Below, piece by piece: positions 2,743-6,145 of a DNA stretch of 35,007 nt (its first letter is position 1; each line of letters begins with the position of its first letter). Source of the DNA: Bacteroidaceae bacterium (lineage in GTDB: Bacteria; Bacteroidota; Bacteroidia; Bacteroidales; Bacteroidaceae). The stretch covers positions 1 through 35,007 of the forward strand of contig JAFUYM010000033.1 in assembly GCA_017470525.1 (NCBI GenBank), written 5' to 3'. A model generated the notes under the pieces. The model made no database searches. It saw only the letters and a list, made by a program, of their open reading frames with translations, and was not told the origin of the DNA. The position numbers and the translations under genes are program-made.

Positions 2743-3197
2743 TGTTTTCCACAAAGATATATAATTTAAGTTTCGGGAGTTTGCCTCCCTTTGAAGTTAA
2801 AGAAGTTAGAGAAGTTAAAGACGATACTCTGCCAACAATACAACATTCGTCTCTAACTTCTGAGCGAAGCGATAACTTCCGAAAGTTGAGTACATAATAT
2901 ACTCCACCTCCATAAAAACATCCATTATCGGAACAAATTATCGTTAATTATCGTTAATTATCGTTTATCTTGCGCCGCAGCGCAAGAGGCTGCCCATGAA
3001 GATTTTTTGCTCCTTCGCCGCCAAAGGCGGCTTGGAAAAACGAAAATTACCGATAATTTTTTGTTTTATAGAGGAAAGATAAGAACTTCCTCGTTTAATT
3101 CCTAAAAAATCGGACATTTTTTCTTCGAAAGCCTGTAGTTTTTGTATTTTGTTGAAAAAAGTTTCAAGAAAATGAAAAACTTACACATATTTTTGTT
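2743..3197. other. Intergenic stretch with short hairpins and repeats, no gene seen
   Basis: No supportable ORF. It contains small GC hairpins: GGGAG/CTCCC (2775-2789), CTTGCGC/GCGCAAG (2969-2986) and GCCGCC/GGCGGC (3017-3031). It also holds an AAGTTAAAG/AAGTTAGAG direct-repeat patch around 2795-2820 and the 10-bp tandem array described separately. The last 100 bases are strongly AT-rich and lead into the promoter of the structured RNA. Confidence 0.6.
2936..2965. repeat. 10-bp tandem repeat, three exact copies
   Basis: AATTATCGTT occurs three times head to tail (2936-2945, 2946-2955, 2956-2965). An inverted partial copy, CGATAATT, lies near 3051-3058. One repeat per DNA helical turn is the arrangement expected for a cooperative protein-binding site, but no binding protein can be named. 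Confidence 0.75.
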
Positions 3198-3205
3198 TAT
3201 CTTTG
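3198..3205 (+). promoter_or_regulatory. -7 element of the structured-RNA promoter
   Basis: TATCTTTG matches the Bacteroidetes TAnnTTTG consensus, followed by a likely start of transcription near 3210. A good -33 TTTG is not visible at the usual distance. Confidence 0.55.
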
Positions 3206-3210
3206 CAACT

Positions 3211-3530
3211 GTTCTCTTGCCGAAGTCCACTTTCGGGTGGGGTTGAGGGAGGGAACCTATATATAGAAAAGGCGTTACTTGCGCTTTGTGCTTGACGTTC
3301 GGGAATCTGGCAGTTCCATAAAAAAACAAGTCAAAAAACAAAGCAACAATGGCGTCCACTTGGTGTATATGATATGATACTATCAGTAAAAGCCCCATAG
3401 GCTTTATGTAACTGTTTTATCATTATATGCCAATGCGTGGGCTTCGGCGTTGCTCGTTTCGACTTGTTGGGCGATGCCAGAGCCTCTGAACGTGAGACGA
3501 GCAATAGGACAGAACTCTCACGCATTTTTT
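3211..3530 (+). ncRNA. Candidate structured non-coding RNA, family not recognised
   Basis: The region has a promoter at its 5' end, dense complementary pairings and a stem closing onto a U-run. 5' domain: GTTCTCT (3211-3217) pairs with AGGGAAC (3250-3256) around a UUCG-capped hairpin CCACT/GGTGG (3227-3240). Middle: AAGGCG/CGCTTT (3269-3287), GGAA/TTCC (3302-3317) and a perfect AAAGCC/GGCTTT hairpin (3389-3405). 3' domain: AATGCGTG (3432-3439) pairs exactly with CACGCATT (3519-3526), enclosing a UUCG hairpin (3441-3448), a long stem TTGCTCGT/ACGAGCAA (3450-3457, 3497-3504; extendable to 12 pairs) and CAGA/TCTG (3478-3488). The outer stem runs into TTTTTT, so it doubles as a terminator. It does not show signature sequences of tmRNA, RNase P RNA or SRP RNA. 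ORFs on the opposite strand look like artefacts of this structure. Exact ends are estimates. Confidence 0.6.
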
Positions 3531-3603
3531 GTATATATGACTCAATCAAATCTTTGCTTACCCGCCAAGTTCGAGAGTTGCACGGCAATAAAACTTATTA
3601 AAT

Positions 3604-3834
3604 ATGAAAATATCATGTGGTATTGAACATGAACGTTTGGCTCTTGGATTTGACGATGTGCGTTTTATCTACATCAAAGGAACTTCTTATGCACCGTCAC
3701 AAACATTCTTTGTGAAAAACGAAGACTTTTATGGTCGGAATGATATGTCTGTCGAAGAGAAGAATAATGCGTTGAAGGCGATTGATGCATACAATGCAAA
3801 GAATGCTTGGCAAATCGCTCTTGTGGATGACTAA
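3604..3834 (+). CDS. Small hypothetical protein, 76 residues
   Basis: I do not recognise this protein. It starts MKISCGIEHERLALGFDDVR, has a mixed beta-like N-terminal half (FIYIKGTSYAPSQTFFVKN) and a helical C-terminal half rich in Asn, Ala and Lys, ending VDD. There is no signal peptide or membrane segment. It sits 74 bases after the terminator end of the structured RNA, with a weak -7-like AATCTTTG at 3549-3556, so it may have its own promoter or use read-through from the RNA. A strong hairpin follows the stop codon. Its AT-rich codon use fits the island rather than the flanking core genes. Confidence 0.55.
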   Translation: MKISCGIEHERLALGFDDVRFIYIKGTSYAPSQTFFVKNEDFYGRNDMSVEEKNNALKAIDAYNAKNAWQIALVDD

Positions 3835-3841
3835 AAAGAAT

Positions 3842-3882
3842 GGAAAGTATAGGGTATAACCATAGGATACCCTATACTTTCC
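3842..3882. terminator. Perfect 16-bp stem hairpin after the 76-residue ORF
   Basis: GGAAAGTATAGGGTAT (3842-3857) is exactly complementary to bases 3867-3882, with a 9-nt loop. It begins 8 bases after the stop codon at 3834. No T-run follows, so it may act as a bidirectional terminator or mRNA-stabilising hairpin rather than a classical intrinsic terminator. Confidence 0.65.
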
Positions 3883-3945
3883 CTACGGTTTGTAAATGAA
3901 CTTATAATATTAACCAAGCAATTAGAAAGAAATTATGGAGATACA

Positions 3946-4329
3946 TTGAGAGAACTCTCCCCGCAAGCAGTGGAAGCCCTCAAAGAGATAAAGAAAACAT
4001 GGGACAAACTACAGAAAGAGCCATATGGCAGATTTCTCCCAAACGGCATGTCATTGCCACCAAGTTCTGGAAATTATTTGTACAATGTTGACAAACTTGA
4101 GAAGCAAATAGGGCTTCTTTGTGATGAGACTTCTAATGCTTTTCAAACAGTGCTCAATGATTTTTGTCATACAGTTGATAAAGAATGTGCATATGTGAGA
4201 AATTATCGCGATGATTCGCGTAAAAGCAGAGAAAAGAATAATGCAGTTTTATCTGATTTGATGCGTAATGCGAATAATCAAATAGCATTGGATTTGTTTC
4301 CAGTTCTTAAGTTAACGCATAATTTATAA
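3946..4329 (+). CDS. Hypothetical helical protein, about 127 residues, start uncertain
   Basis: The open frame reads LRELSPQAVEALKEIKKTW near its N-terminus and is rich in Lys, Glu, Asn and Leu, consistent with a mostly helical soluble protein. I recognise no family. There is no ATG in this frame near the 5' end: the only candidate is TTG at 3946. An ATG at 3935 lies in another frame and hits a stop after MEIH, just as this frame opens. A single missing base near 3945 would join them, so a frameshift or a TTG start are both possible. It is followed by 67 bases to the BspA-like gene and may be cotranscribed with it. Confidence 0.45.
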   Translation: MRELSPQAVEALKEIKKTWDKLQKEPYGRFLPNGMSLPPSSGNYLYNVDKLEKQIGLLCDETSNAFQTVLNDFCHTVDKECAYVRNYRDDSRKSREKNNAVLSDLMRNANNQIALDLFPVLKLTHNL

Positions 4330-4396: not shown

Positions 4397-6145
4397 ATGA
4401 AAAAAAGTCCATGTATTTTAGTTTTAGTGTGCATGCTCATCATGTGCACATTGATATCTTGCAGCAAAAACAATGAGGGTGAGTCGGAAAACGAGGAAGT
4501 TGAAAATCGGATTACAGATGAAGAGGATGAAAGTTTTATGGTCTCCCTCACTGCCATAAATTACACAACAGATGGTTACTTTGACGGTGTGTTGTATTAT
4601 CAAATAACATCAAACTTGGATAACACAGTAGAGGTCACAAAAGGTTCCAGGGGAATTTCCGTTGTCAAAATTCCTAAATATGTGATAATTAATGGAACTA
4701 CATATTCTGTTACGAGTATTCATTCCGAAGCATTCCAACAATGTGAGAATTTGAGTTCAGTTATTATCTCTGACAATATTGTCTCTATTGGTGAAAATGC
4801 TTTTGAAGGAATACAAAATTTGGATTCTATTGTTTTCGGTAAGAATGTGATGACTATTGGCTATAATGCTTTTAGTGGATGTCCCATAAGTAAAATTGAA
4901 TTTGCAGACGGAGAAAGCCTTGGGCGAATTATGTGTAAACGTGGATGGAGAGATACAATATATGAAACATGGTTGATGCAAAAACTCTATGGAGGAAGAG
5001 TACCCACGTACGATAACGATATACACTTATTTATTCAGGGGAAAGAAGTCCATGATATAATAATTCCTACAAGTGTCACATCAATAGATGAATGTGCTTT
5101 CGTCGGTTGTAACAATTTGAACTCTGTAACGATTTTCGATGGTGTAAAGGAAGTCGGTTTTGGGGCTTTTTATGGTTGTAGTAACTTGACATCTCTGACC
5201 ATTTCTAATAGTGTTACTAAGATTGACCCTTATGCTTTCTACCAATGTAGTAGTTTGAACTCCTTGACTATACATGGCAATATTACATATATAGGCGAAT
5301 ATGCTTTTGGATTCTGTCAAAGATTGACCTCTTTGACCATCGATGGTGATGCCACAGGTATTGACGAACTTGCTTTTGGGGGGTGTAGTGGTTTAGAATC
5401 CGTAAATATAGATATAAAAGATTTATCAAGATGGTGTATTAGTAATTGTAATATTTTTATGAACTATAGCTATGCGATTAATTTATCTTTAAATGGTGAG
5501 ATAATACGGAGTCTGATTATTCCAAACGCTGTTACATCTATCAGTGATTTTGTATTTCATAACTGCAGCGGCTTGACCTCATTGACCATCCCCAACAGCG
5601 TCACATCCATCGGCGAATCTGCTTTCGAGGGCTGCAGCGGCTTGACATCGCTGACTATCCCCAACAGCGTCACATCCATCGGATATCAGGCTTTTCGGAA
5701 TTGCAGCGGCTTGACCTCATTGACCATCCCCAACAGCGTCACATCCATCGGCGAATCTGCTTTCGAGGGCTGCAGCGGCTTGACATCGCTGACTATCCCC
5801 AACAGCGTCACATCCATCGGCAGTTATGCTTTCGGGGGCTGCAGTGGCTTGACCTCTGTGACCATCCCCAACAGCGTCACATCTATTGGCAGTTCTGCTT
5901 TCTATGGCTGTAGCGGCTTGACCTCCTTGACCATCCCCAACAGCGTCACATCCATTGGCACCGGGGCTTTCGCTGGCTGTACCAATGTGAGTTCTATAAC
6001 GATATGCGCATCTATACCTCCAACCATTTATTATTCATTTGATGGAAGAGATGATTGTCTTATTTATGTGCCGTCAGGAAGTGTCGAAGCATATAGAAAT
6101 GCCGAAGGATGGGAATATTGCGCAGATAGAATTCGAGGATTTTGA
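4397..6145 (+). CDS. BspA-like leucine-rich-repeat surface lipoprotein, C-terminus truncated by frameshift
   Basis: A 582-residue predicted surface lipoprotein; BspA-type proteins mediate adhesion to host or other bacteria. The N-terminus has a signal with lipobox LISC (Cys22), then an acidic, Asn/Glu-rich stretch (23-45) that could act as a surface-export signal. Residues from about 105 on are LRR_5-type repeats of about 23 residues. The early ones are diverged, while the last six (about 393-530) are near identical copies of SGLTSLTIPNSVTSIG plus a variable xxAFxxC. The frame ends ...WEYCADRIRGF at a TGA, but a typical tail continues in the +1 frame (6129-6254). The near-identical repeats are GC-rich, in contrast to the AT-rich rest of the gene. 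It may still make a membrane-anchored LRR protein without the tail. Confidence 0.88.
   Translation: MKKSPCILVLVCMLIMCTLISCSKNNEGESENEEVENRITDEEDESFMVSLTAINYTTDGYFDGVLYYQITSNLDNTVEVTKGSRGISVVKIPKYVIINGTTYSVTSIHSEAFQQCENLSSVIISDNIVSIGENAFEGIQNLDSIVFGKNVMTIGYNAFSGCPISKIEFADGESLGRIMCKRGWRDTIYETWLMQKLYGGRVPTYDNDIHLFIQGKEVHDIIIPTSVTSIDECAFVGCNNLNSVTIFDGVKEVGFGAFYGCSNLTSLTISNSVTKIDPYAFYQCSSLNSLTIHGNITYIGEYAFGFCQRLTSLTIDGDATGIDELAFGGCSGLESVNIDIKDLSRWCISNCNIFMNYSYAINLSLNGEIIRSLIIPNAVTSISDFVFHNCSGLTSLTIPNSVTSIGESAFEGCSGLTSLTIPNSVTSIGYQAFRNCSGLTSLTIPNSVTSIGESAFEGCSGLTSLTIPNSVTSIGSYAFGGCSGLTSVTIPNSVTSIGSSAFYGCSGLTSLTIPNSVTSIGTGAFAGCTNVSSITICASIPPTIYYSFDGRDDCLIYVPSGSVEAYRNAEGWEYCADRIRGF
5564..5820 (+). 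repeat. 119-bp perfect direct repeat within the LRR array (69-bp unit)
   Basis: Bases 5564-5682 and 5702-5820 are identical, offset by 138 bp, which is two 69-bp (23-codon) LRR units. The whole run of six units (about 5572-5980) keeps almost the same DNA sequence, including third codon positions. This points to recent duplication or gene conversion rather than selection on protein alone. Confidence 0.9.

Follow-up and report, generated by a model that had tools for sequence, protein, structure and literature searches.

The question raised by this locus is whether the structured RNA placed at 3198–3530 is an independent transcript closed by its own terminator or the leader of the 76-residue reading frame that follows it. 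The window (the whole stretch of 35,007 nucleotides analysed here, from contig JAFUYM010000033.1 of a Bacteroidaceae bacterium) had received an initial annotation that favored the independent transcript, with the leader as alternative, and that proposed an Rfam scan, a comparison of fold energy with shuffled sequence and a test of covariation in homologues. The RNA at 3198–3530 belongs to a family of large folded RNAs that Rfam 15 does not match, and the best reading of the conserved element is as a 5′ leader that runs from 3211 to 3603 (about 390 nt). The claim of a structured RNA of about 320 nt stands, on both the shuffle test and covariation in homologues, but its extent does not: beyond 3530 the conserved element reaches a further hairpin at 3564–3586, ahead of the ATG at 3604.

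The plus strand folds at a minimum free energy (MFE) of −113.1 kcal/mol (z −5.53), a stability reached by none of 100 shuffles, as against z −2.24 and 3 of 100 shuffles for the minus strand. The box claimed at the 5′ end is in place and recurs: TAnnTTTG, of which TATCTTTG is the window's version and which we take to be the Bacteroidetes-type −7 promoter box, is found upstream in 133 of 185 copies and in 45 of 925 random 90-nt windows from the same loci, while inspection by eye of the window copy gave no clear −33 box. With scores above gathering as the threshold, the 4227 covariance models of the Rfam 15 library produced no match in the window. At E up to 10, the interval 3000–3900 gave eight matches, all below gathering, the best of them (E 0.51) outside the core; in 18 other loci the sole match was abiF, outside the element, and in 4 further loci scanned at E up to 1 there were two unrelated matches, both below gathering. 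A known Rfam family is thus ruled out as the identity of the element, no match to it exceeding gathering in any of the loci scanned. The reported lack of a tmRNA signature agrees with ARAGORN, which finds neither tRNA nor tmRNA.

Copies of the element also occur in other genomes. DNA search gave matches in 26 of 61 genomes, its own included, and a covariance model of the 3′ domain gave 113 matches, up to 17 in one genome, spread over 25 of the 29 genomes that represent the genus (again counting its own). Under stricter filters, the same model picked up the element in 22 of 147 others sampled from the order, whereas a sample of 197 further genomes from the phylum yielded none. Scanning GTDB contigs for the pattern yielded at least 120 stretches; among the matches listed, 79 of 80 titles are of Bacteroidales type and the remaining one, of a MAG, reads Firmicutes (L103); the 79 include Prevotella, Bacteroides, Muribaculaceae, Parabacteroides, Odoribacter and Alistipes, along with two Candidatus genera that belong to Bacteroidales. 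The window sequence has no match in the GenBank phage collection, and four IMG/VR contigs fit the pattern. An IMG/VR contig of 85.7 kb carries a copy at 375–639 (L203) followed by a first ORF of 551 aa, which may be the one first gene (1 of 137) that matches elongation factor Tu models. Another copy (L245 and L246, 6843–7099, 114 bits, with a D3 hairpin of 7 bp by eye) sits on plasmids of 95 and 93 kb in human isolates of Phocaeicola dorei and P. vulgatus; P. dorei CL06T03C03 has a plasmid copy at about 53930–54186 of NZ_CP072250.1. In all, the profile detects the element in 241 of 244 loci, several of which represent the same site more than once. Filters on score, length and identity left 191 distinct full copies, of which 187 were used in the alignment and 185 remained after a redundancy filter. 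The features of the window copy are collected in Table 1.

Table 1. Features of the window copy and of the genes behind it.
Feature	Position	Strand	Details	Evidence
−7 promoter box	3198–3205	+	TATCTTTG	sequence; TAnnTTTG count
P1, 5′ hairpin	3211–3256	+	GTTCTCTT...GAGGGAGGGAAC, TTTCGG loop	MFE fold; copy swapping
P0 5′ strand, core closing helix	3258–3270	+	TATATATAGAAAA	pairs with 3525–3540
Domain D1	3271–3356	+	outer stem 3271–3275/3352–3356; inner 3283–3288/3339–3344	covariation, 185 copies
Helix P_A 5′ strand, between domains	3295–3302	+	partner 3486–3493	covariation
Kissing loop	3306–3312	+	UCUGGCA, 7 bp with UGCCAGA 3475–3481	covariation
Helix C	3325–3329	+	AACAA, partner TTGTT 3464–3468	z 38; MI pairs
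Central helix and variable hairpin, D1–D2 linker	3357–3433	+	AAGCCCCATAGGCTT	z 15.4
Domain D2	3435–3523	+	outer stem 3435–3441/3517–3523; inner 3449–3459/3495–3505; small hairpin 3469–3472/3482–3485	covariation, 185 copies
T-run and P0 3′ strand	3525–3540	+	TTTTTT 3525–3530	TTTT count; P0 pairing
D3 hairpin	3564–3586	+	loop GAGAGTT 3573–3579, complementary to D2 AACTCTC 3513–3519	copy swapping
First gene	3604–3834	+	76 aa, no Pfam match	
Second ORF	3946–4329	+	127 aa, TTG start, no Pfam match	
BspA-type leucine-rich repeat protein	4397–6145	+	582 aa	Pfam LRR_5, E 3e-108

The 3′ outer stem, the 11-bp inner stem and the TTTTTT of the initial annotation all exist, and covariation in the homologues is strongly positive, giving the kind of conserved, covarying fold expected of a riboswitch. 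The strongest signal comes from P_A, with 556 double-change cells over 185 copies (z 51) and, in a set of 44 copies, double changes in 8 of 8 pairs. The kissing loop follows with 257 double-change cells over the 185 copies, and its cells are paired in 100% of cases in the 44. Helix C shows as MI pairs at columns 122–126/245–249 and is paired in 68–73% of cells of the 44 copies, where the alignment is uncertain. The corresponding values are 77.7% and 94.9% for the outer and inner stems of D1; 85.8%, 97.9% and 95.5% for the outer stem, inner stem and small hairpin of D2; and 84.9% for the central helix. Complementarity between the strands of P1 exceeds that of swapped copies in both its outer part (z 14.2, 157 copies) and its inner part (z 8.7, 170 copies), as does that between the flanks that form P0 (z 11.6). 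RNAalifold on 21 copies finds compensatory changes in 18 of 43 pairs. Among column pairs ranked over the 185 copies, the nine at the top are standard pairs in 97–99% of copies, several with at least four pair types, and those ranked lower are a mixture of helix neighbors and subfamily signals. The 44 copies were taken from 69 well-aligned ones and realigned separately with MAFFT; the structure, which came from copies including those 44, pairs 89.8% of their cells as against 39–48% when partners are slid by 1–3 columns, with double changes in 38 of 63 pairs against 17–27 and a covariation score of 0.380 against 0.09–0.13.

From these pairings, D1, D2, P_A and C may be read as meeting in a pseudoknotted four-way junction. 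RNAalifold draws the core as a single long rod, which we reject as the only fold, given that in the scan of 185 copies the kissing loop, P_A and C are backed along with the stems of D1 and D2. Crosswise covariation among columns 91, 132, 240 and 277, close to the junction, could reflect branch migration or merely subfamilies.

The evidence that bears most directly on leader against free RNA lies past the T-run, in D3. Its own stem is short in the window, at 3 bp. Of the 151 copies (among the 191) with a recognised D2 strand, 72 have, in the next 120 nt, an exact complement of at least six bases to that 3′ strand, compared with a mean of 27 and a maximum of 38 in 200 rounds of copy swapping. 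When the pairing is scored over 181 copies, z is 15.6; four control segments set against the same downstream stretch give z 0.2–0.9, so that an effect of relatedness is guarded against. With G-U allowed, 122 of the 185 copies score at least 6 and 63 score lower, 13 of the latter lacking any match. The stems that flank the loop are longer than in swapped copies. Median distances are 36 nt from the T-run region to the beginning of the loop and 25 nt from the end of the loop to the gene start, the latter being 10–35 nt in 83 of the 115 copies with a gene. The distance from the element to the start codon is likewise constrained, as in a leader RNA: of 180 copies with at least 320 nt downstream, 115 have an ORF start at a distance of 40–90 nt and 65 lack one there; for control positions taken from those loci, the interval holds a start in 333 of 1647. 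In 15 of the 191 copies, the first 300 nt downstream contain no start of an ORF of 50 aa or longer; in 10 of these the sequence ends within about 300 nt, and the other five (L065, L091, L061, L233 and L204) have more than 4 kb downstream.

From the same perspective, a free RNA that acts in trans and stops at the T-run, with the gene expressed by leakage or from a promoter of its own, is unlikely. It would account well for the RNA having its own promoter box, for the high stability of the fold and for the TTTT found directly after D2 in 170 of 185 copies, which, behind a GC-rich stem, looks like a terminator and speaks against a leader. It would not account for a hairpin past the T-run that pairs with its own copy of the RNA, nor for the clustering of gene starts at 40–90 nt; moreover, the T-run doubles as one strand of the closing helix and can pair with the A-run of P0. 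The simple terminator scan of 3000–4000, which allows loops of 3–8 nt, gave no hits. Since gene starts cluster and the downstream hairpin co-varies with the RNA, we infer that transcripts continue into the gene, and the step from terminator to independent RNA in the initial annotation is not upheld; the leader of the 76-residue ORF, which it gave as the alternative, fits better with the shared downstream hairpin and the gene-start spacing. This leaves room for a regulated partial terminator, that is, attenuation, at the T-run. In the window, the D3 pairing (3513–3519) and the D2 outer stem (3517–3523) share three bases, 3517–3519, and should therefore compete.

What the leaders precede was assessed on 143 first ORFs of at least 60 aa starting 15–130 nt downstream, of which six were dropped and one shortened, leaving 137. 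They are diverse genes of accessory character, with Pfam matches that cover 96 families, many of them singles; among the best 25 of these are LRR_5 (10), LytTR (7), two BACON types (4 and 3), DUF4007 (3) and DUF2971 (3). As an upstream control, 137 ORFs were sampled from 143, and removing three long ones left 134. These are mostly ordinary genes; LRR_5 and LytTR are absent from their best 25 families, and thus have at most one each. PADLOC families number 104 for first genes versus 47 for upstream ORFs, counts that are inflated by related models. AbiD, DpdF and candidate systems give the upstream set defence-type matches as well, so that the neighborhoods themselves appear to be enriched, and its ORFs were picked as the longest, the two sets not being matched in every respect. 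With an imperfect control and inflated counts, what we claim is an association, and no measured enrichment: the leader family appears from its gene neighbors to be associated with many defence systems.

Individual cases are more concrete. Among 20 first genes picked by eye from the 137, PADLOC gives nine clear matches, three weak ones (L082, L087 and L140) and eight without any. The clear ones are a type III methyltransferase (L090), BrxP (L167), an SNF2/HKD helicase (L183), ZorA (L077), SspB (L148 and L099), AbiH (L098), a CorA-like protein (L119) and BrxA (L188); Ssp, Zorya and BREX loci are thereby among those with a leader ahead of the first gene. Of eight further genes tested, seven fit the system of the first gene or one related to it, namely SspC and SspD (L148), PbeA (L099), ZorB and ZorE (L077), BrxC (L167) and a type IIG-like enzyme (L183); the eighth, a gene of 153 aa in L167, matched nothing. 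In three loci (L014, L019 and L023), dynamin-like, Hsp70-like and C5 methyltransferase labels were by-eye readings and were set aside. Three loci have a first gene followed by an LRR_5 protein: the AbiH and CorA-like cases (L098 and L119) and one whose first gene has neither a Pfam nor a PADLOC match (L243), for which a by-eye SIR2-like label was dropped. The order in the window resembles theirs, two small ORFs preceding the LRR gene. Right after the 76-aa ORF, at 3842–3884, there is by eye a long near-perfect inverted repeat, GGAAAGTATAGGGTA ... TACCCTATACTTTCC, with no T-run behind it. Elsewhere, ten copies (L236, L078, L084, L093, L120, L153, L171, L194, L200 and L095) precede a family of small proteins of 68–87 aa that look HTH-like by eye. 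RNA and first gene do not travel as fixed pairs: in the six largest groups with like genes, RNA identity is 0.57–0.61 against a background mean of 0.58, and values of about 0.65 or more occur in 7 of 18 such groups, all of two or three members.

We propose that the element is a riboswitch-like control element, with transcription, regulation and ligand as the inferred parts of the proposal. That it is a cis-acting 5′ leader of a new family, with a sensor core and a D2/D3 output, is in our judgment probable, though by no means assured. Sequence comparison shows a promoter-like box, P1, a closed core in which P_A, C and the kissing loop lock D1 and D2 together, and, shortly ahead of the first gene's start codon, a D3 loop that pairs with the D2 3′ strand. 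The core would act as the sensor and the D2/D3 contact as the output: in one state the stretch ahead of the start codon would be exposed, and polymerase might pass the U-run after D2, and the other state would hide that stretch or stop transcription. In gut bacteria, where copies lie directly ahead of genes for surface proteins, regulators and phage defence, the RNA is probably a built-in switch of this kind. Against a switch, the first genes have no single common pathway, which is unusual for a metabolite riboswitch. The gene list is what suggests a broader notion, which we offer tentatively as possible rather than expected: a horizontally shared switch RNA would put unrelated phage-defence operons and surface proteins in gut Bacteroidales under one RNA-sensed signal, such as infection or cell state, read by the pseudoknotted core and relayed by the hairpin before the start codon. 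A switch, if that is what the element is, would offer one shared means of controlling when phage defences come on and the surface changes in gut bacteria. It would also add an RNA fold, new and with a definite hairpin as its output, that is open to testing in culturable species, given the plasmid copies of P. dorei and P. vulgatus.

The great diversity of first genes would also suit a passive expression module, whose fold protects the mRNA or aids translation of horizontally moving genes and senses nothing. So would the distribution at loci of the ABC-F gene that neighbors the RNA in the window: with 1.5 kb of flank searched at each of 30, the RNA is present at the window's own locus and missing at the 29 others. 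One of the ABC-F contigs (G034) carries a different copy about 5.6 kb further along. We consider such a module improbable: mere stabilisation would hardly seem to call for so elaborate a fold, and the overlap of the D2/D3 pairing with another helix suggests switching. The idea of a precise empty site was rejected; the neighbors on either side are not syntenic in relatives, so that the comparison gave no clean border of an insertion.

Very unlikely, in our estimation, is an element that acts at the DNA level, a folded recombination site or MITE-like repeat carrying genes. The core does form an inverted repeat, though an imperfect one (59% across some 300 positions), the copies are dispersed, with up to 17 in one genome, two are on plasmids, and the accessory genes could be cargo. 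However, over the nine stems there are 1466 G-U pairs and 137 A-C mismatches, and an excess of about tenfold indicates that the plus strand functions as RNA; the promoter box and D3 pairing are common to the copies; and no recombinase is found among the best 25 of 96 or the best 25 of 198 first-gene families. The integron attC-like form of folded DNA site was rejected on the same counts, the pairing not being strand-neutral. Least likely of the readings considered is a self-processing ribozyme that frees the mRNA from its leader, which a compact pseudoknotted fold near the start codon might bring to mind, and against which the element matches no Rfam family.

The cis-acting leader has several counterparts among known systems. 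One is the abiF RNA (RF03085, 47.8 bits), whose name points to an abortive-infection gene and which lies near a leader copy in Prevotella ihumii (L087, 1254–1290); it is a model of 37 positions, on the opposite strand, and has zero overlap with the element. Riboswitches with pseudoknotted aptamers, such as the cobalamin type, are a known class, and share with the element a conserved 5′ leader fold, a kissing-loop brace and a contact before the start codon; the element differs in having no known ligand or Rfam match, and in first genes of many unrelated functions. Our paper searches turned up no report of the element; the 3161 RNAs of 27–219 bp that Fremin and Bhatt (2021) predicted in human microbiomes may partly overlap with it (PMC8040213). 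Bacteroidales-1 RNA (RF01693) and other motifs of Weinberg 2010 are likewise structured RNAs of Bacteroidetes (PMC2864571), but the Rfam library gives no match at the copies of the element; Bacteroides-2 and GUCCY-hairpin are without an Rfam number in the table of that paper (PMC2864571). Finally, the “ornate” RNAs OLE, GOLLD and ROOL are, like the element, large, intricate and bacterial (PMC12286853); compared with them in sequence by the Rfam scan alone, the element stands apart as a gene leader with a pairing hairpin ahead of the start codon.
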